Positions 2,545 to 37,958 of a stretch of DNA of 41,781 nucleotides are shown one piece after another (the stretch's first letter is position 1; each line of letters starts with the position of its first letter). A model generated the notes under the pieces. It saw only the letters and a program-made list of their open reading frames with translations. It was not told where the DNA came from and searched no databases. Source of the stretch: a virus; the IMG/VR virus record IMGVR_UViG_3300033143_002588, positions 1-41,781 of that record. One strand, given 5' to 3'. The position numbers and the translations under genes are program-made.

Positions 2545-2994
2545 ATGGGCAAGTATAAGCGGTACGATGACGAATTTAGAGCCAGCGCCGTTTTGATGCT
2601 AAAGGCGGCAGGTTACCCCGACACCACCGGGGCGATTGGTCGTGTCTCTAGTCATCTAAGCGTGCCTGAGTCTACCCTGCGAGGCTGGTATAGGGGCACA
2701 AGAAATCCGCCCCCCGCGAAAATGCGTGCTGAAAAAGCGTTTGACTTAAAGATTGCCCTTAAGCAGGAAATAACCTTAATTTTTGATGAGATGGATAATA
2801 CACGAGCCGAGGCTTCTTATCGTGATTTAGGATGGGTTGGCGCTGTATTAATTGACAAATTGCGCCTAGTGCAAGACGAACCAACAGCTATCATTAAGCT
2901 ACAACGGGCGGTAGAACAGGGTGCGGTATCACCGGAGCAAGTGCGGCAACGCTGGCCCACGCTAGCCGAGGAAGTGCTAGTCAATGCTAATTGA
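2545..2994 (+). CDS. terS: Terminase small subunit (putative)
   Basis: The protein has 149 residues. The N-terminal ~55 residues form a helix-turn-helix of the kind seen in small terminases and IS3-type OrfA proteins (YDDEFRASAVLMLKAAGYPD, then VPESTLRGWYRG). The rest is helical, suited to oligomerisation. Small terminases recognise the packaging site and load the large subunit. Its place immediately before, and 11 bases overlapping, the large terminase gene is the main support; sequence alone would also allow another DNA-binding role. Confidence 0.7.
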   Translation: MGKYKRYDDEFRASAVLMLKAAGYPDTTGAIGRVSSHLSVPESTLRGWYRGTRNPPPAKMRAEKAFDLKIALKQEITLIFDEMDNTRAEASYRDLGWVGAVLIDKLRLVQDEPTAIIKLQRAVEQGAVSPEQVRQRWPTLAEEVLVNAN

Positions 2995-4525
2995 TCATAG
3001 GCTAACCGAAACCGAATTATTAGAGCTTGACTTATTAGAGCTTGAAAGGTTCGCCCCGCTTGCCCCCGAGGATTGGGAAGCGCGGGTAGAGCTTTTATTC
3101 GGCGCGTTCTTTTGGTATCCGTTCAGTTCCCCGCACCGCGCCATCTGGGAGTGGGCAAGCGCCATTGATCCCGCCTCCACCGCCCGCCCGTTTGTGGCGA
3201 TTTGGCCGCGCGGTCGGGGTAAGTCCACCCACGCCGAAGCTATCGCCGCCGATCTTGGTGCGCGAAAACAACGCCGGTATTGCATGTATGTCTGCGCTAC
3301 GCAAGATCAGGCAGACAAGCACGTCCAGACTATCGCCCGTATGCTGGAAAGCGACGCGGTGAACCGGTACTACCCGGCGGTGGGCGAGGCAAAGGTCAGC
3401 AAGCACGGTAACCGGCAATGGAATAGACGTATCGTCCACGCCGCCAACGGGTACACGGTGGAGGCGGTCGGGCTAAACAAGGCGGTGCGTGGGCAAAAGA
3501 TTGATTGGGCGCGCCCCGACCTGATTATTTTTGATGACATAGACGAGAAACATGATAGCGACTTAACGCGCGGCAAGAAAGAAGACACGATCACCGGTAG
3601 TATTCTCCCGGCGGGCGCGGCTAATGCGGCGGTGTTGTTTGTGCAAAACTTAATCAGTGAGGATAGTATCGCCAACCGGCTAGCCCGTAACCCCGGCGAT
3701 CCGCTGGCGGCGGGCTATCTGATGGAGCGGATGATATCCGGCCCATACCCGGCGGTGGATGGATTGAAGTATGAGCCGGTAACCGACGGTGATAAAACCC
3801 GCTGGCAGATCACAATGGGCGAGTCATTATGGGATGGCTTTACGCTTGCCGTCTGCGCAGATGAACTTAACCGTGTTGGCCCAACGGCCTACCTGATTGA
3901 ATCCCAACACGAAGTAGACACCGATAACCCGCTGGCTTTATTGAGTGAAGCCGACTTTAAGCGGACACGGGTTGACAAACACCCGTTACTTGCCCGCGTT
4001 GCCGTTGCTGTTGATCCCCCGGCATCCGTTGGGCAGTGCGGTATTGTTGCCGGTGGTATTGCTAAGGTGGGCGGAGAGTGGCACGGTTACACGTTAGAGG
4101 ACAACACCACCCCGCCCGGTGTTAAGCCCGGTACGTGGGCGATTGAGGTACTTAAAACATACCACCGCACCCGCGCCGATATCATTTTCTGCGAAGTGAA
4201 CAACGGCGGCGATATGGTGGAGGCAACCATCCGGGGCGTTAAGTGGTTAGACGACGCCGGTAATGTGATTGTAGACGGCGGGCGAGTACGTATCGAAAAG
4301 GTACGCGCCAGTCGTGGTAAGCGGACGCGCGCTGAACCTGTTGGTGTTGTGTTCGAGCAAGGCCGCGCCCACCACGTCGGGCACTTCCCGGAACTGGAAC
4401 AACAGTGGCGACGGTGGCAACCGGGCGATGATAGCCCCGACCGACTGGACGCTGAAGTCTGGCTCTATACCGGGCTGGGATTATCCGAACAACACGATCC
4501 GCCGAAAGTGGTACGCTATGCCTAA
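2984..4525 (+). CDS. terL: Terminase large subunit
   Basis: The protein has 513 residues, a normal length. It is the motor ATPase and nuclease that packages DNA into the prohead. The N-terminal ATPase has a Walker A-type loop WPRGRGKST (about residues 74-82) and a Walker B strand DLIIFDDID near 184-192. The C-terminal RNase H-like nuclease shows its acidic residues in VAVDPPAS (~343), FCEVNNGGDMV (~403) and SPDRLDAEVW (~495). It overlaps the small subunit upstream and the portal gene downstream (8 bases), as expected for a packaging operon. Confidence 0.95.
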   Translation: MLIDHRLTETELLELDLLELERFAPLAPEDWEARVELLFGAFFWYPFSSPHRAIWEWASAIDPASTARPFVAIWPRGRGKSTHAEAIAADLGARKQRRYCMYVCATQDQADKHVQTIARMLESDAVNRYYPAVGEAKVSKHGNRQWNRRIVHAANGYTVEAVGLNKAVRGQKIDWARPDLIIFDDIDEKHDSDLTRGKKEDTITGSILPAGAANAAVLFVQNLISEDSIANRLARNPGDPLAAGYLMERMISGPYPAVDGLKYEPVTDGDKTRWQITMGESLWDGFTLAVCADELNRVGPTAYLIESQHEVDTDNPLALLSEADFKRTRVDKHPLLARVAVAVDPPASVGQCGIVAGGIAKVGGEWHGYTLEDNTTPPGVKPGTWAIEVLKTYHRTRADIIFCEVNNGGDMVEATIRGVKWLDDAGNVIVDGGRVRIEKVRASRGKRTRAEPVGVVFEQGRAHHVGHFPELEQQWRRWQPGDDSPDRLDAEVWLYTGLGLSEQHDPPKVVRYA

Positions 4526-12449: not shown

Positions 12450-13426
12450 CCGCACCTGATTTATTAGAAGTACAAGTAGGTGAAGAGTCGTCATACGGAA
12501 CACCCGTCGCGCCCACCCATCGCCTGATGGGGGTGGAGCTAGGCGGGGCGAGTATCGCACCGGGTTACACCGGGGAAATCTACCAGGAAGAGCGCAAGAG
12601 TTTGTCCCCCGGCTTTAACGCCGGGCTAAACCGGACGTGGGGCGTGGGCAGTATCCCCCTGCAAATTGGGTACGGGAAAGATTTAATCTGGTTTCTCAAC
12701 GCTTTGTTTGCCGAAGACGCCGCTCCGGTAGGGACTGATCCCTACACCTGGACGTATGTTGCTCCCAGTTCCGCCGCCCCAGCCAGCAAGTCCTTGACGA
12801 TTGTCCGGGGTGGGCCGGACGGGGCGTACAGTCTCGCCGGGGCGGTCGGGCAAGCGCTAACGCTTTCCTGTGAAACCGGCGGGCGCATGATGGGCGCGGT
12901 TGACCTGATCGCTAAGTCATTCCAAGTCGATACTCTGGAAACGTTATCCGACACCGCTATTAATCCGGTGATGGGTCACCATATGAGTCAGATTTCAATT
13001 GACGCATTGGGCGGCACTATCGGTACTACGGCATTCAGTGATTGCGCATTCGGTTTTGAAATGCAAATCACCAGCGGGCGGGATGTCAAGCAGTGTCTTG
13101 GCTCGTTAAGCGCTTCTAATTACAATGAAGGCAAGTGGACGGGAACGCTTAATCTCCGGCTAGAATTCGATACCGCTTCAAAAGCGATCTATGACGCTAT
13201 CGTTGGGGTTACCAATGACCCGGTCGGGCGTTTAGTTCGGATTGACTTTGCGGACGGTGCAGATGAATTCCAGATTGACTTCGCCGGAATCTTTATCGAA
13301 GCCCCGCCGCCGTTTGAGGAATTTGAGCGGTCGTTAATGGTGAACCTGAAATTTGACGGATTGACCGATAATACTTATGGCAACTGGTGCGGGATTGAAA
13401 TCATCAACACCATAGCTAGCCTGTAG
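12446..13426 (+). CDS. Major tail tube protein
   Basis: The protein has 326 residues, beta-rich throughout. The N-terminus (EVQVGEESSYGTPVAPTHRL) and the later strand pattern are typical of phage tail tube proteins that stack as hexamer rings around the tape measure. The C-terminal part (VRIDFADGADEFQIDFAGIF) resembles the tube beta-sandwich. The place before the chaperones and tape measure is standard. No sheath gene accompanies it, so the tail should be non-contractile. Confidence 0.8.
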   Translation: MTAPDLLEVQVGEESSYGTPVAPTHRLMGVELGGASIAPGYTGEIYQEERKSLSPGFNAGLNRTWGVGSIPLQIGYGKDLIWFLNALFAEDAAPVGTDPYTWTYVAPSSAAPASKSLTIVRGGPDGAYSLAGAVGQALTLSCETGGRMMGAVDLIAKSFQVDTLETLSDTAINPVMGHHMSQISIDALGGTIGTTAFSDCAFGFEMQITSGRDVKQCLGSLSASNYNEGKWTGTLNLRLEFDTASKAIYDAIVGVTNDPVGRLVRIDFADGADEFQIDFAGIFIEAPPPFEEFERSLMVNLKFDGLTDNTYGNWCGIEIINTIASL

Positions 13427-21531: not shown

Positions 21532-21543
21532 CGGATATCCGAA
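21530..21543. promoter_or_regulatory. Operator-like palindrome, copy 2 (TTCGGATATCCGAA)
   Basis: This is a perfect 14-bp palindrome sharing arms TTCGGA/TCCGAA with copies at 361 and 39364. Its last base is the A of the lysin ATG (21543). It occupies the place where a ribosome site would be expected, so a bound protein or an RNA hairpin here could control lysin production. Confidence 0.6.
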
Positions 21544-22124
21544 TGCAAATGCTCAAAATTCTAATCGCATCACTCTACATATCATGCCTACACGCGGCAA
21601 CGCCCGCCGATGGTTTCGCGCCGGTTTGCCTATCCCACGCGAATATCGAACAGTTAGTCCGCCTGTGTGTGGTAGAATGCCGGGGGATGGAGGACGCGCG
21701 CGATAGCTGTTGCGCGTCTAGCGTTAGCACCGCACTGGCGCGGATGTACTATTATCAGGAGAATAGCGGGTACTATCTGGCAGGGGATACGTTAGACGAC
21801 GTGTTGGGATATAGCCGCGATAACATCTGGCAGTTTCCGCCGTATGCCTACCGGGGTTGCGATTGGGACGCGGGTGGCGTTCATCCGTCTAGCGTGGCTT
21901 GTCTTGAGAATGAGGATCATGGCTGGGCGGCTGGCCCGGCGTTGGATTGCGTTCTGAACGGGGAGTGTGGGGGTTGTCCGTACTATCTGTACTATTCGCC
22001 CCGCGCCGCCATTGACGCGCTGCCGGGGGCTTGTGAGGTTGAGTCTATCGGCGGCATACACTGGTATCATGATGGTTGGGGGGCGCACCCAGTTCCAAGC
22101 TGGCACGCCCCGGCGGGAGAGTAG
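21543..22124 (+). CDS. Exported Cys-rich cell wall hydrolase (SleB-like), lysin candidate
   Basis: The protein has 193 residues. A signal peptide is clear (basic start, LKILIASLYISC, then a cleavage-like LHAATPA). The core IEQLVRLCVVECRGM followed by a helix (VSTALARM) matches the start of SleB/hydrolase_2 domains, where the Glu of the E-x-R-G element is catalytic. The many Cys residues suggest disulfides after export. Together with the holin-like gene it would form the lysis set. Starts at 21543 or 21549; no Shine-Dalgarno is seen. Confidence 0.65.
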   Translation: MQMLKILIASLYISCLHAATPADGFAPVCLSHANIEQLVRLCVVECRGMEDARDSCCASSVSTALARMYYYQENSGYYLAGDTLDDVLGYSRDNIWQFPPYAYRGCDWDAGGVHPSSVACLENEDHGWAAGPALDCVLNGECGGCPYYLYYSPRAAIDALPGACEVESIGGIHWYHDGWGAHPVPSWHAPAGE

Positions 22125-22961: not shown

Positions 22962-23396
22962 TTATGTCTTAGTAAGACAAAGGAAACGTTTTAGGCAATG
23001 TTTCCTTATGAACAAATGATACCACAAATAGGGACTTCTGTCAATAATTTCCAACCACTGCACAGCAACGGCGGCAACCTGAATCAGTTCCTCTTTAACC
23101 TTCCCGGCAGCACGTCCTCCAAAATCATCGTGTAGAACTGCCTGAGAGACTTCCCCGATTTCTTCTGTGAGAATAGCCAGCCACTTGTAATCATCGTGGT
23201 TCTGTTCGCCCCATTGCCGATCTTGTTCTTTGCGTGCCATGATTACTACAGGAATGGTTTCATCAATGGCGGCTTCATATGAGTAACCGCCATATTGTGC
23301 CGTCATATATTCCCGATGTAATTCGATGGCATATAGAATGTCCTCTAATGTAAATATCTTTTCGTCTGGATCAATACCGTATTTTTTATCACCCAT
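22962..23396 (-). CDS. MazG-like nucleotide pyrophosphohydrolase
   Basis: The protein has 144 residues. The all-alpha NTP-PPase core is clear: RQWGEQNHDDYKWLAILTEE, then EIGEVSQAVLHD, then KEELIQVAAVAVQWLE; the E-x2-E and E-x-x-D type acidic residues bind Mg2+. Such enzymes hydrolyse NTPs or alarmones and are common in phages, where they may blunt host stress signalling. The last ~20 residues (from RSPYL) are an odd basic, aromatic tail beyond the usual end of the fold, encoded by DNA with short inverted repeats. Confidence 0.8.
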   Translation of the reverse strand: MGDKKYGIDPDEKIFTLEDILYAIELHREYMTAQYGGYSYEAAIDETIPVVIMARKEQDRQWGEQNHDDYKWLAILTEEIGEVSQAVLHDDFGGRAAGKVKEELIQVAAVAVQWLEIIDRSPYLWYHLFIRKHCLKRFLCLTKT

Positions 23397-28681: not shown

Positions 28682-29104
28682 TTATTCCTCCCCTTTGAAA
28701 AGCGTTTCGATTACCGGGTTATAAAACAACCCGACTTCTACGCCGAAGAAATCGGCAAAAGCGGCTATCATTTCTTTTGAGACAGTAACCCTGTCATCCT
28801 TCTCGATAAGTGAAACCTTTGTTTGTGACATTTTCAGAAATGGATATTTGCCTTTTATTATCTTTGCAAAATCCACCTGGTTTAACCCGCGCCCCTTACG
28901 CAGACTTTTAACAAGCGCCCCGAAACTTGTTTTGTCACCAACCTCAATATTGTGATACTCTCGATAGTAGGCGTTATAGTTTGTCCATGCTGATTCCTGG
29001 TCGGAAATGCTGGCCTCTAATAATTCCTGAGTATCTTCCACCGCCTCATCAGCATCTATTGCAATACTGAAAAGCCTCATAAGATCATCGCGTTTATCTT
29101 GCAT
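28682..29104 (-). CDS. XRE-family repressor-like regulator
   Basis: The protein has 140 residues. The N-terminal half is an acidic helical domain; the C-terminal half (from ~62) is an XRE helix-turn-helix: FGALVKSLRKGRGLNQVDFAKII, then the recognition part around MSQTKVSLIEKDDR, ending in FADFFGVEVGLFYNPV. This order (helix-turn-helix at the end) is less usual than in CI or Cro. It is the best candidate to bind the operators at 28270-28297 or 30498-30511. AAGGAGG precedes the ATG. Confidence 0.8.
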   Translation of the reverse strand: MQDKRDDLMRLFSIAIDADEAVEDTQELLEASISDQESAWTNYNAYYREYHNIEVGDKTSFGALVKSLRKGRGLNQVDFAKIIKGKYPFLKMSQTKVSLIEKDDRVTVSKEMIAAFADFFGVEVGLFYNPVIETLFKGEE

Positions 29105-29108
29105 CTTG

Positions 29109-29657
29109 CTATTCCTCCTTTATAGCCACTTTGTTTAAGTATTCTAATAGCTCGCCATCCGGGTAAAACCATTCGCCCCGGACGCGGTATTCACTAAATC
29201 GTTTGTGTAATTCGTATTCTCGCTGACCATATCTGCCGGTGCGATCATAGGCGACTAGGCGCAACTCGAAAGGGGATGCGGTTTGTAAGTTGTTCATGCG
29301 GTTGCGAATGTTTTTAGATATCCCAATTTTAACTAAGCCAGACGGCGCTACTTGAATAATGTAAGTCCCTTGCACCTTTGGCGGTTTGACTGGCTCAAAT
29401 ATTAGTTCTGGATTATTGGGTTGCATTACGTATTCGGTTCTATTGGTTACTTTCTTGACAATGGTCTGATGATTAAGTTTGAGCGCATTCAAATGATCTA
29501 TCGTGTTTCTTAGTTCATAATTCGTTTCTTTTGTTGCCAGTGCCGCCGCGCTTTTCAGATCGTAGTATCTTGAGAGCGCCTTTCTTAAAGCCGTCTCCGT
29601 CTCAAATCTCTTGACAGCGCGTTCTAAATATCTTCTCAGAATAGTTCCAGCCATCAT
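29109..29657 (-). CDS. T5orf172/MUG113-type GIY-YIG-like protein
   Basis: The protein has 182 residues. The C-terminal ~80 residues (GTYIIQVAPSGLVKIGISKN, then RMNNLQTASPFELRLVA and YELHKRFSEYRVRGEWF) match the T5orf172 branch of GIY-YIG domains, found in phage antirepressors and homing-type nucleases. The N-terminal ~90 residues are helical and basic. It lies in an operon with the XRE protein and behind the antisense-controlled leader, so a regulatory or antirepressor role is likely. The ATG overlaps the upstream stop. Confidence 0.75.
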   Translation of the reverse strand: MMAGTILRRYLERAVKRFETETALRKALSRYYDLKSAAALATKETNYELRNTIDHLNALKLNHQTIVKKVTNRTEYVMQPNNPELIFEPVKPPKVQGTYIIQVAPSGLVKIGISKNIRNRMNNLQTASPFELRLVAYDRTGRYGQREYELHKRFSEYRVRGEWFYPDGELLEYLNKVAIKEE

Positions 29658-29989
29658 TGGCGCAATCCTTTTCGAATACGGCCAGCATATACATGCGATA
29701 CGGTCTGCCCGATAGCGTCGCTTAGAATGGCGGCAAGCGCCCTTGACGGATATTCGTCAGGGTTTAGGTACTTATCGTTTGTTTGAAGAAAGACAATTAT
29801 TAGCTCTTTTTTGCTGATTTGCGCCTGCTGGAAACTTGTTTCCAAATTGTTACCAACGCCTATCAATGCGTCTAATTTTGCCTCTATCCGATCAGATTGT
29901 TCTTTAAGGGCGGCGCGTTCTTCTGCCGCCTTCTTTTCAGCGCGCAATACATCGCGCCTTAGAAATAGGTATTCATCTGATACTGGCAT
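29654..29989 (-). CDS. Leader-controlled coiled-coil protein, first gene of the regulatory operon
   Basis: The protein has 111 residues. The N-terminal half is a charged coiled coil (RAEKKAAEERAALKEQSDRI); the C-terminal half (ISKKELIIVFLQTND..., then LSDAIGQTVSHVYAGRIRKGL) could be a helix-turn-helix. I do not recognise the family. Its ribosome site AAGGGGG is inside a leader hairpin (29995-30019), and its mRNA leader is covered by a predicted antisense RNA. It may be a replication, copy-control or immunity protein; this is inferred from the control region, not from the protein. Confidence 0.65.
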   Translation of the reverse strand: MPVSDEYLFLRRDVLRAEKKAAEERAALKEQSDRIEAKLDALIGVGNNLETSFQQAQISKKELIIVFLQTNDKYLNPDEYPSRALAAILSDAIGQTVSHVYAGRIRKGLRQ

Positions 29990-29991
29990 AC

Positions 29992-30019
29992 AAAAACCCC
30001 CTTGAAAAATCTGGGGGTT
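29992..30019 (-). terminator. Leader terminator/SD-sequestering hairpin (minus)
   Basis: On the minus strand AACCCCC (30019-30013) pairs with GGGGGTT (30001-29995) around an 11-base loop and is followed by more T residues, ending three bases before the ATG at 29989. The GGGGG arm is also the Shine-Dalgarno sequence. The hairpin can thus stop transcription or hide the ribosome site. It competes with pairing of AACCCCC to a second GGGGGTT upstream (30054-30048). Confidence 0.7.
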
Positions 30020-30030
30020 GCGTCTATACT
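30002..30030 (+). promoter_or_regulatory. Promoter of the antisense RNA (plus)
   Basis: A -35 box TTGAAA (30002-30007), a 17-base spacer, and a -10 box TATACT (30025-30030) predict a start at G30037, which is exactly the first base of a 9-bp stem. Confidence 0.7.
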
Positions 30031-30036
30031 ATATAT

Positions 30037-30099
30037 GGTTGCCGCTTAACCCCCGTCATGCGGTGACCACCTGCCCACGTTGAGGCGTGGGTATTTTTT
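30037..30099 (+). ncRNA. Predicted ~63-nt antisense RNA (countertranscript)
   Basis: From G30037 the RNA folds into a 9-bp stem (30037-30045 with 30060-30068, two G-U pairs) with a 14-base loop containing AACCCCC, then a second stem CCCACG/CGTGGG (30074-30079 with 30086-30091) followed by six U, a typical terminator. No open reading frame is present. It is fully complementary to the start of the minus-strand leader, whose own promoter starts near 30102. The layout matches plasmid copy-control and phage immunity RNAs. Existence is predicted from sequence only. Confidence 0.65.
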
Positions 30100-30100
30100 A
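30074..30100 (+). terminator. Rho-independent terminator of the antisense RNA
   Basis: The 6-bp stem CCCACG/CGTGGG (extended by one G-U) with a 6-base loop is followed by TATTTTTT. It ends just before the predicted start of the opposing transcript. Confidence 0.8.
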
Positions 30101-30108
30101 TTTCCTCA

Positions 30109-30137
30109 ATTATACCTTTTTCCTAGATGGTTGTAAA
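30109..30137 (-). promoter_or_regulatory. Promoter of the minus-strand regulatory operon
   Basis: On the minus strand a -35 box TTTACA (30137-30132), a 17-base spacer and a perfect -10 box TATAAT (30114-30109) predict a start near 30102. The resulting leader is about 110 bases long and includes the whole complement of the antisense RNA. Confidence 0.75.
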
Positions 30138-30139
30138 GC

Positions 30140-30458
30140 AACTGAATCAAAAGAGGCCAGCGCACGGATACACACCGGCCTCTACACTCAGGCAGTCCTA
30201 CCCCGACAACTGTGCCGGATCAGACTGCGATAGGCGCGCCAACCCTCCTCACAGAGAAGCGCGCCATGATAAACAAAGGAGTGGGGCGGAACGGTATCTT
30301 TACCAGAAAATAACGCCGCCCCCGCGTGCCTACCTACAAAAAGGGTGAGTGGCGCAACGATAAGGTTTTCTATCACATTGGAGGTGAGATAGGTTTTACT
30401 TCGAGGTGTCACGCCCCTCCCCAATACTGTACCACACCCACGCTTTTTTTTCAAACAC
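30140..30458. other. Non-coding divergent control region
   Basis: There is no credible gene here. The region has an inverted repeat, AGAGGCC/GGCCTCT (30152-30183), that on the minus strand is followed by TTTT and could insulate the regulatory operon promoter, and a T8 run at 30443-30450. Short frames on both strands (30127-30348 plus, 30188-30454 minus) are Arg/Pro-rich, lack good ribosome sites and overlap the promoters. A segment near 30324-30410 reads like a decayed coding fragment in one frame. Confidence 0.4.
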
Positions 30459-30488
30459 TTGACAAAATCAATTTTCTGAGATTATAAT
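30459..30488 (+). promoter_or_regulatory. Strong early promoter (plus)
   Basis: Perfect -35 TTGACA (30459-30464) and perfect -10 TATAAT (30483-30488) are separated by 18 bases; the start is near 30495. It drives the early operon starting at 30535. This is the strongest consensus promoter in the window. Confidence 0.85.
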
Positions 30489-30497
30489 CATGGCAAG

Positions 30498-30511
30498 GTT
30501 AAACGTTAAAC
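30498..30511. promoter_or_regulatory. Operator-like tandem GTTAAAC repeat
   Basis: Two direct 7-bp repeats, GTTAAAC, sit at 30498-30504 and 30505-30511, right after the predicted transcription start of the early promoter. A protein bound here would block initiation or early elongation. The XRE-type protein is a candidate, though its other proposed operators have a different sequence. Confidence 0.45.
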
Positions 30512-30534: not shown

Positions 30535-30795
30535 ATGCAATTACCAGACGAAAATACCAACTATAGGGCTACCACGCTGCTACACGCGCTTGGCGCGGGC
30601 AAGCGGGTTGCCATGACGTGGCAGCATGAACAACCGGCCACGCTATACATGAACGCAGATTATAGCCTGACGTTCTTTGAGTATTTCCCGGAAAAGTGGG
30701 GGATTAAAGAGCTATACTCGTTCTGCGAGAAACTGACTCACAAACAGTGGGCGGACATCATGGCGCAAATCCAGGACACGGAGGTAGGCGAATGA
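30535..30795 (+). CDS. Hypothetical early protein
   Basis: The protein has 86 residues, the first gene of the early operon, with TTGGAGAAAA before the ATG. It is acidic with several Trp and aromatic residues (WADIMAQIQ near the end). First-position early genes are often takeover or anti-host proteins, but nothing in this sequence proves that. The stop overlaps the next ATG. Confidence 0.7.
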   Translation: MQLPDENTNYRATTLLHALGAGKRVAMTWQHEQPATLYMNADYSLTFFEYFPEKWGIKELYSFCEKLTHKQWADIMAQIQDTEVGE

Positions 30796-33939: not shown

Positions 33940-33969
33940 CCGGGCGGTTTGCATATATGGAGGAAAGAC

Positions 33970-34587
33970 ATGAAGTACACCATTCAGGATATTAGAGGTT
34001 TAGAACCATGTTACGACCCCGTCCGCTATTTGACCGAAGATTGGGAAGGGACTCTGCTTGACTTGCTTAGAGTGGACGACTGCCCAGCAAAAGATCGTGT
34101 CTGGGTATGCTGTCAACTGTTACCAGACAAGGAAAGCCGCCTATTTGCCTGCGATTGTGCGGAGAAGGTGCTGCCGATTTACGAGGCCAAATATCCAGAT
34201 GACCCCCGAGCGCGTCACGCAATAGAAACCGCACGGCGTTATGCTAATGGCGACGCCACCGACGAAGAGTTGGCTGCGGCTGCGGCTTGGGCTGCGGCTG
34301 CGGCTTGGGCTGCGGCTAGGGATGCGGCTGCGGCTGCGGCTGCGGCTAGGGATGCGGCTTGGGCTGCGGCTTGGGCTGCGGCTGCGGCTTGGGATGCGGC
34401 TGCGGCTGCGGCTTGGGCTGCGGCTAGGGATGCGGCTGCGGCTGCGGCTGCGGCTGCGGCTGCGGCTAGGGATGCGGCTGCGGCTAGGGATGCGGCTGCG
34501 GCTGCGGCTGCGGCTGCGGCTTGGGATGAATTCATAGAATGGGCAGTTGAGAGACTGCGTTTTTACGCCGCTGAACCGGAAGGCTAA
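33970..34587 (+). CDS. Ala-rich repeat phage protein
   Basis: The protein has 205 residues from ATG 33970 with GGAGGAAAG upstream. The first ~95 residues are an ordinary domain (LLDLLRVDDCPAKDRVWVCC..., RLFACDCAEKVLPIYEAKYPDD) common in phages; then about 85 residues of Ala with periodic Trp, Arg and Asp, and a short C-terminal helix. The repeat would form a long helix. Its DNA is a hexanucleotide-like repeat and could vary in length without breaking the frame. Confidence 0.75.
   Translation: MKYTIQDIRGLEPCYDPVRYLTEDWEGTLLDLLRVDDCPAKDRVWVCCQLLPDKESRLFACDCAEKVLPIYEAKYPDDPRARHAIETARRYANGDATDEELAAAAAWAAAAAWAAARDAAAAAAAARDAAWAAAWAAAAAWDAAAAAAWAAARDAAAAAAAAAAAARDAAAARDAAAAAAAAAAWDEFIEWAVERLRFYAAEPEG
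34267..34521 (+). repeat. GCTGCG-type hexanucleotide repeat in coding DNA
   Basis: About 255 bases are built almost only of GCTGCG units with variants containing TTGG, TAGG or GATGCG. All frames are open here, so several shadow frames result. Slippage in 6-base steps would change protein length by two residues. Confidence 0.9.
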
Positions 34588-36959: not shown

Positions 36960-36974
36960 AACAGGAGTTTGATT

Positions 36975-37958
36975 GTGACCAGTAAGCTATTAATAAATGA
37001 ATACCCGCTCCAGGTGCTCCCCACCCTTGCCGTCAAGATAGGGTTGAATGAGGCGCTATTTTTGCAGCAACTCCATTACTGGCTTGGCAAGTCTGGAAAG
37101 CCGCGCGATGATCACGAGTGGATTTATAAGACTTACAAAGAGTGGGTAGCAGATGATTTCCCATTCTGGAATGAGCGAACTATCAAGCGCATTGTCGAAA
37201 GTCTGCAAGCCAGAAAGTTGATCATGACGACCGACAAGTATAATAAGAGCAAGTCAGATCGGACGCTATGGTATGCTATCGACTATGAAAAGGTGGCCGA
37301 ATTAGAGCAAAGTGACAAAGTGTCACCCCAATACCAAAGTGACAGAGTGTCACTACCAGATGACAAAGTGTCATCCTCTAAGACAGTGACAGAACGGCAC
37401 GCTCATACCAGAGAAAAGACTACAGACAAAGATTCCCCGGCTTCGCCGGAGCACGCCCCCGCTAGCGTCGAAAAACCGGTTACCCCTCCCAAGAAAACCA
37501 AAGCCAAGCCGAAACAAACCGATCCCGCTATGCCCAAAGAAGAATTCAACGTCTGGCAGCAGGCGCTACTCAAGGGTAAAACCGGCATTGACTATTCACA
37601 GGAGAAGGACAAGCGCCCGCCGGAGTTCTGGCGTTCTCAGTTCAGCGCCACCCACAATAAGTGGGCGAAGTGGTGGGCGGGTTATTTGCCGTCATGGGAA
37701 CACCAGCCGCCGGAGGGGGTGACGCCGGAAAAGCTGATCGCCTTCTATACGTGGTGTCGGGAGGAAATGAACTTATCACCGTCTGCCCTTCCCCAGAAAT
37801 TTGAAACGATAGAACGGCAGTGGGGGAATTGGGCGGCGGCGGAGTATGACCGGCAGGATACTACCCCAAAGAACGACGGTATCCGCCGCCTCTATGATCC
37901 GGTAAAACTGGCCGAATACGCCGCGCGCAAGCAGGCAGAATATGAGGGCACGTCATGA
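36975..37958 (+). CDS. Replication initiator (winged helix, O/DnaD-like)
   Basis: The protein has 327 residues from GTG 36975, with AGGAG seven bases upstream (TTG 36969 also possible). The N-terminal ~115 residues form a winged helix (LLINEYPLQVLPTLAVKIGLNEALFLQQLHYW...RTIKRIVESLQARKLI), as in lambda-O-like or DnaD-like initiators. A disordered charged middle (~120-185) and a C-terminal Trp-rich domain follow. Three palindromes inside its gene (37312-37374) are the likely origin. The DnaB-type helicase gene follows with a 4-base overlap. Confidence 0.75.
   Translation: MTSKLLINEYPLQVLPTLAVKIGLNEALFLQQLHYWLGKSGKPRDDHEWIYKTYKEWVADDFPFWNERTIKRIVESLQARKLIMTTDKYNKSKSDRTLWYAIDYEKVAELEQSDKVSPQYQSDRVSLPDDKVSSSKTVTERHAHTREKTTDKDSPASPEHAPASVEKPVTPPKKTKAKPKQTDPAMPKEEFNVWQQALLKGKTGIDYSQEKDKRPPEFWRSQFSATHNKWAKWWAGYLPSWEHQPPEGVTPEKLIAFYTWCREEMNLSPSALPQKFETIERQWGNWAAAEYDRQDTTPKNDGIRRLYDPVKLAEYAARKQAEYEGTS
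37312..37374. repeat. Palindromic iterons, probable replication origin
   Basis: Three 15-bp palindromes, GTGACAAAGTGTCAC (37312-37326), GTGACAGAGTGTCAC (37339-37353) and ATGACAAAGTGTCAT (37360-37374), occur in the linker-coding part of the initiator gene. All share TGACA-N3-TGTCA. A half site follows near 37385. Lambda and its relatives keep the origin inside the O gene at the same relative place. No strongly AT-rich segment is evident, though an A-rich stretch lies downstream. Confidence 0.7.

Follow-up and report, generated by a model that had tools for sequence, protein, structure and literature searches.

Can a phage control an operon by means of a counter-transcribed RNA that closes an attenuator, in the manner of the plasmid pT181? 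This question is raised by a short intergenic region of a virus record of 41,781 bases, which was analysed over its whole length and is referred to below as the window. The two ends of the record share a direct repeat of 100 bases or more, and its gene content comprises a terminase (2984-4525), portal, head and tail genes, a DnaD-like loader and a DnaB-like helicase. Rightward genes occupy the record up to about 22.1 kb and resume at 30,535; between 29,989 and about 22.1 kb the genes are directed leftward. The locus of interest is situated between the divergent operons and constitutes the leader of the leftward one, whose first three genes, encoding a 111-aa protein, a MUG113/T5orf172 protein and an XRE regulator, are followed by further genes (Table 1). 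The first two overlap by 4 bp (ATGA). A family match was looked for with the product of the first gene and none was obtained; its structural model, of low confidence (mean pLDDT 65.6) and too poor for a fold search, points to one long helix and to a C-terminus that is helical too. The DnaD-like replication gene is located on the other arm (36969-37958), outside the leftward operon. A leftward terminator placed before the mRNA promoter would insulate the leader from upstream transcription.

Table 1. Coordinates in the window of the leftward operon, its leader and the facing small RNA
Feature	Coordinates	Strand	Remarks
First gene of the leftward operon, 111 aa	29654..29989	-	ATG at 29989
Second gene, MUG113/T5orf172 (GIY-YIG type) protein	29109..29657	-	
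Third gene, XRE-type helix-turn-helix regulator	28682..29104	-	
Leftward terminator	30152..30183	-	just upstream of the mRNA promoter
Leftward mRNA promoter, TTTACA-17-TATAAT	30109..30137	-	11/12 match; predicted start near 30102
mRNA leader, 113 nt	29990..30102	-	attenuator region
Leader-ORF SD, AGGTGGT	30066..30072	-	inside the predicted antisense target
Leader ORF, MTGVKRQPYIV then stop	30024..30059	-	AUG 30059-30057, stop UAG 30026-30024
Segment 1, GGGGGTT	30048..30054	-	loop of leader hairpin, pre-emptor-like
Segment 2, AACCCCC	30013..30019	-	5' arm of putative attenuator hairpin
Segment 3, GGGGGTT	29995..30001	-	3' arm of putative attenuator hairpin, then T's
Antisense-RNA promoter, TTGAAA-17-TATACT	30002..30030	+	consensus scan 10/12; predicted start G30037
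Predicted antisense RNA, about 63 nt	30037..30099	+	hairpin, then terminator
Intrinsic terminator of the antisense RNA	30072..30099	+	9-bp stem 30072-30080/30085-30093, T6 tract 30094-30099

A number of other features of the window were recorded in their own right. The segment 21466-21531 (plus strand) matches the DUF3800-VIII RNA (Rfam RF03075, 49.6 bits for a threshold of 40.2) and immediately precedes ORF 21543-22124, which displays no Pfam or PHROG match and could be a novel partner gene of this RNA. Between the divergent promoters, positions 30140-30455 contain several large inverted repeats and fold slightly better than expected on both strands (z of -2.6 on the minus and -2.2 on the plus strand), without any Rfam match; this may be a structured RNA or a replication or packaging site. 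Positions 30459-30511 comprise a perfect-consensus rightward promoter, TTGACA-18-TATAAT, and after it the near-palindrome GTTAAACGTTAAAC, which occurs nowhere else in the window. The latter may serve the rightward operon as an operator, to which the XRE protein would perhaps bind. Further along this operon, a gene at 33949-34587 (plus strand) is similar to Imm5-like immunity proteins.

The explanation that we favor, with a probability of about 0.6, is that the leftward operon, which starts with the 111-aa gene and takes in the XRE regulator, is under the control of an antisense-driven, pT181-like attenuator located in its 113-nt leader and perhaps coupled to leader translation. The elements of this design, their pairing, their order and their rarity are directly established from the sequence. 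The production of both RNAs, termination at the hairpin, the direction of the control and the role of the leader ORF are inferred. The proposed mechanism can be summarized as follows. The RNA of about 63 nt would pair with the early part of the leader, covering segment 1 as well as the Shine-Dalgarno sequence (SD) and AUG of the leader ORF. Segment 2, left free, would then pair with segment 3; transcription would stop at the U-run that precedes the start codon, with the SD of the 111-aa gene concealed in the hairpin (OFF). When the antisense RNA is lacking, segment 2 would be occupied before segment 3 is made, transcription would go on and the SD would remain free (ON). Segment 2 would be occupied either by segment 1, acting as a pre-emptor or through a loop pseudoknot, or by a ribosome. 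In the ribosome variant the leader ORF would be translated, and a ribosome placed on its stop codon would have its leading edge at about 30015-30013.

The small RNA was considered first from its own strand. An earlier note on this DNA had described a plus-strand promoter starting an RNA at G30037, and this promoter was found exactly as claimed. The same note had the RNA forming a 9-bp stem with a 14-base loop and then a terminator, which is borne out by the predicted fold: the stem is formed by 30037-30045 and 30060-30068 around an outer loop of 14 nt (30046-30059), the terminator scores +34 for its longest stem, and the folding energy of the entire RNA (-29.6 kcal/mol, z = -4.3) is equaled by none of 200 shuffles. 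Two G-U pairs of the first hairpin become A-C mismatches in the mRNA, so that the hairpin is weaker there. When the same 57-nt stretch is folded on each strand, the z value is -3.5 for the plus strand versus -1.6 for the minus strand. The structure is therefore tuned for the plus-strand RNA, and this asymmetry favors a real transcript on that strand. Two compact units made of a promoter (at least 10/12) and a terminator within 150 nt are found in the window, where shuffling yields 0.03 per window. If an opposing promoter is also required at the 3' end of the cassette, the window has one case, and one more is found among 284 other loci totalling 3.36 Mb. Both promoters were scored against the sigma-70 consensus, which is assumed to apply to the host. 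No Rfam family exceeded its gathering score at 29990-30140, and a match to OmrA-B (20.4 bits for a 40-bit threshold, E of 0.27) was taken as chance. Elsewhere in the window, a second compact cassette is found at 23044-22900 (minus strand) with TTGACA-17-TATCAT, three stem-loops and a strong terminator with a T run (z = -4.0). It starts inside the end of ORF 22962-23396 and could be a small RNA of about 100 nt or a leader.

On the opposite strand, the mRNA promoter and the three 7-nt segments are present precisely where they had been announced. Segments 1 and 3 are mutually exclusive partners of segment 2, each over 7 nt. The description of segment 3 as both an SD site and a terminator arm is equally sound: it is the core of the strong SD (AAGGGGGT, anti-SD pairing of -11.7 kcal/mol) of the 111-aa gene, and it is the 3' arm of a terminator-like hairpin located directly upstream of the ATG at 29989. 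The 5' end of the predicted antisense RNA lies 48 nt upstream of the same ATG. A run of five T's comes directly after the G-run of segment 3. With a formula of the literature, the 2:3 hairpin obtains a borderline terminator score (0.1 or -16.7, depending on the stem chosen), and its U-run is short. The hairpin of pT181, a proven attenuator, nevertheless scores -27.4, worse than that of the window, and a borderline value does not therefore exclude a terminator.

These last properties bear on an alternative in which the control is translational only. The antisense RNA would cause segments 2 and 3 to hide the SD of the 111-aa gene and transcription would not be ended. There is a precedent in pSK41, where an antisense-induced hairpin hides the ribosome binding site without attenuating transcription (PMC5703833). 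The borderline score, the short U-run and the identity of segment 3 with the SD core are all in line with such a scheme, whereas the five T's directly after the G-run, much as in pT181, point to termination. The two outcomes are not separated by the sequence, and we regard purely translational control as unlikely, though deserving of attention.

The antisense-driven attenuator was then confronted with folding predictions. In a growing leader the 5' hairpins form first; the probability of the 1:2 pairing is 0.99 at 94-102 nt, and that of the 2:3 pairing is 0.99 from 110 nt. With the antisense-covered stretch made unavailable for pairing, 1:2 becomes impossible and 2:3 still forms. Cofolding of the leader with the antisense RNA likewise yields a complete duplex in which the 2:3 hairpin is intact. 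Closure of the gene is therefore the effect expected of the antisense RNA, through termination, hiding of the SD or both. The closed state is predicted at -39.6 kcal/mol versus -30.9 kcal/mol for the nested open state, a difference of about 9 kcal/mol in favor of OFF, in programs that handle nested structures only. A loop pseudoknot that keeps the first hairpin is several kcal/mol nearer to the closed state by a rough hand estimate. After segment 3 has been made, opening consequently requires kinetic trapping by 1:2, a pseudoknot or a ribosome. The earlier proposal, in which pairing of segment 2 with 1 opens the gene and pairing with 3 closes it, is thus retained as far as the pairings are concerned, which fit the sequence, but the open state is not an equilibrium state in the nested model.

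An element absent from the earlier account is the 11-codon leader ORF (AUG ACG GGG GUU AAG CGG CAA CCA UAU AUA GUA UAG). Its SD displays the strongest anti-SD pairing (-12.1 kcal/mol) among 28 starts compared in the window, with a spacing of 7 nt from AGGUGG to AUG, and an equally good leader ORF was obtained in only 3 of 3000 leader shuffles. The AUG shares one hairpin loop with segment 1, the very loop that the antisense RNA would contact, and 4 nt separate the end of the stop codon from segment 2, which lies downstream. The leading edge of a ribosome is found at +15 to +17; according to this rule, a ribosome on the stop codon would reach the far edge of segment 2. A ribosome-controlled access to segment 2 is made plausible by this combination of a strong SD, a start in the antisense loop and a stop next to segment 2, and it is at least as plausible as pure RNA switching. 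The claim that the antisense loop favors closure has to be amended accordingly: it agrees with the cofolded and blocked leaders and with the similar plan of pT181, but was made without the leader ORF. Ribosome-driven opening is also attractive because an antisense RNA lying over the SD and start codon of the leader ORF would take away the ribosome and segment 1 simultaneously. As a tentative extension, to which we give rather less than an even chance, a single antisense kissing loop covering the leader-peptide start codon and the pre-emptor would shut leader translation and attenuator opening together. This would be a hybrid between the pT181 type and a leader-peptide system, and possibly a dose sensor for phage genomes; no phage example of such a hybrid was found in the literature.

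The importance of the leader ORF could be pushed further. In a plain leader-peptide attenuator, translation of the 11 codons alone would decide the fate of segment 2 and the opposite-strand promoter would play little or no part. The very strong SD, the position of the stop codon and the ribosome edge falling on segment 2 are all suited to this role, and the ribosome would be a natural ON signal since folding alone favors OFF. Such an attenuator would nevertheless leave both the plus-strand cassette, expected 0.03 times per shuffled window, and the plus-tuned fold without explanation, and we consider it improbable.

Relatives of the locus were searched for in several collections. The 111-aa first gene gave no relative in viral contigs, genome contigs, phage records or 40 related viral records, and viral-contig searches with the XRE, GIY-YIG and DnaB-like genes were empty or returned sequences too distant for comparison. 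At the DNA level, no homologue of the leader region was retrieved from phages (near and distant searches) or plasmids (distant search). The antisense stem pattern was found in 73 stretches, none of them endowed with the promoter and terminator of the small RNA. The three-segment pattern gave 15 matches in viral contigs, which on reading proved to be unrelated terminators or C-rich repeats. The leftward operon was encoded in none of 192 loci collected with terminase and DnaD-like queries, the nearest terminases (63-64% identity) being carried by fragments of 4-6 kb without the leader region. As the leader, the small RNA and the first gene were all left without a homologue by these searches, covariation and conservation contribute no evidence.

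The rarity of the arrangement was estimated by counting. The three-segment motif is reproduced in 7 of 20,000 dinucleotide shuffles of the leader. The triple of 7-mers is not rare as such when sought anywhere in 41.8 kb: it occurs at a few places in the real window and in two of five shuffled windows. Its unusual feature is its position at the SD and start codon, facing a small RNA. Terminator-like hairpins whose 3' arm is an SD number 20 in 3.36 Mb of other contigs, none of them preceded by a third segment, and one in the window, which has it; the scans were designed after seeing the window, and these counts measure rarity rather than provide unbiased p-values. The architecture scan, at relaxed settings, did not recover pT181 from the two pieces fetched, because the pT181 leader is split by the start of the record and pairs imperfectly; the scan is thus a specificity count and not a sensitivity test. 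In another phage, a short promoter-terminator unit facing a gene start was noted on contig L230 (reverse strand, about 12613-12712). It would be antisense to an SD-like site (GGGGGAGGT) upstream of the next gene, in a different layout where no attenuator was seen.

Two further explanations dispense with RNA control altogether. The inverted repeat AACCCCC-11-GGGGGTT flanks the -35 element of the plus-strand promoter, an XRE regulator is encoded nearby, and the repeat might then be a protein-binding operator with the RNA pairings as a by-product. The other copies of AACCCCC are however scattered over the window (12 found versus 6.3 expected), none of them is located at the strong rightward promoter, which has a different palindrome, and an operator would account for neither the SD, the T-run, the leader ORF nor the terminator; we give this reading very little credit. 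A chance overlap of sequences resembling promoters and hairpins, within an unremarkable intergenic leader, for which one may invoke the lack of conservation to lean on and the recurrence of the triple alone in the window and in some shuffled windows, is most improbable given that several rare features coincide within 150 nt.

The antisense-driven attenuator finally gains from a direct comparison with the copy-number attenuator of the staphylococcal plasmid pT181 (RNAI/repC), whose leader was taken from the pT181 record and read with the same tools as the window. It contains AAGGAGTCGCTCAC, then GTGAGCGATTCCTTAA, then TTAAGGAGTCG-A-TTTTTT-ATG, that is, the pre-emptor, the 5' arm and the 3' arm, the latter being the SD of repC followed by T6 and the start codon. 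In the pT181 leader, 1:2 is predicted to form from about 153-159 nt and to last as long as segment 3 has not been transcribed; the phage leader likewise allows the pre-emptor to pair with the 5' arm before the 3' arm exists. The parallel with pT181 drawn in the earlier note thus holds feature by feature, from the counter-transcribed RNA, predicted in the phage, that faces the leader to the pre-emptor, the 5' arm, and a 3' arm that is also the SD, with the T-run and start codon within about 20 nt. It also agrees with the published mechanism of pT181, a proven antisense attenuator operating by the same 1:2 and 2:3 scheme (PMC5703833). The two states are almost equal in pT181 (-50.7 with 1:2 in the complete leader, -50.5 with 2:3 in a leader six bases shorter) and less balanced in the phage. 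The phage leader is shorter (113 nt versus about 190), as is the predicted antisense RNA (about 63 nt versus 87), and, unlike pT181, the phage leader possesses an SD-bearing ORF. The target is a 111-aa phage protein without family match instead of a replication initiator, and a distant blastn search of a plasmid collection for relatedness to pT181-family leaders gave only chance-level matches. The phage locus would work like pT181 attenuation, and it falls outside the pT181 replicon family, since the gene under control is no initiator and no sequence relatedness was detected.

Other known systems share part of the design. In the repZ (repA) control of IncI-alpha and IncB plasmids, the loop of the Inc RNA targets a hairpin loop able to pair downstream near the SD; here too, segment 1 is located in a loop and is complementary to the downstream segment 2 over 7 bp. 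A short leader ORF lies nearby in both cases and has a role in IncI-alpha/IncB control. The plasmid pseudoknot, however, activates translation and involves no terminator, whereas the alternative in the phage is a terminator-like hairpin containing the SD. The RNAIII/repR system of pIP501 combines antisense-induced attenuation with an XRE-type repressor as a second control (PMC5703833), but has a long leader (about 320 nt in pIP501-like staphylococcal plasmids) and controls a plasmid replication gene. Among phages, P22 encodes sar, an antisense RNA of similar size (68/69 nt) that acts on the regulatory gene ant (PMC12197685). In contrast with the present design, sar pairs with the ant mRNA and blocks translation initiation, with no attenuator described. 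The predicted antisense RNA of the window does not overlap the start of the target gene as sar does, only that of the leader ORF. The CI RNA of P4 and the C4 RNA of P1 confer immunity by ending transcription of an early operon, but derive from the transcript they control and not from a facing promoter.

In reviews of phage and bacterial antisense RNAs, the phage examples are OOP, aQ, sar and sas, whose action is on translation or mRNA decay, and attenuation is given for plasmids only (PMC12197685, PMC5415839). No report of an antisense attenuator in phages was found, and none of these four RNAs is so described in the reviews. The sequence design of the phage locus, which covers about 150 bp, is well supported, and its mechanism is predicted. 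If the latter is true, a dose-sensing RNA switch would be common to plasmids and phages, and an early phage decision could measure genome copies directly.
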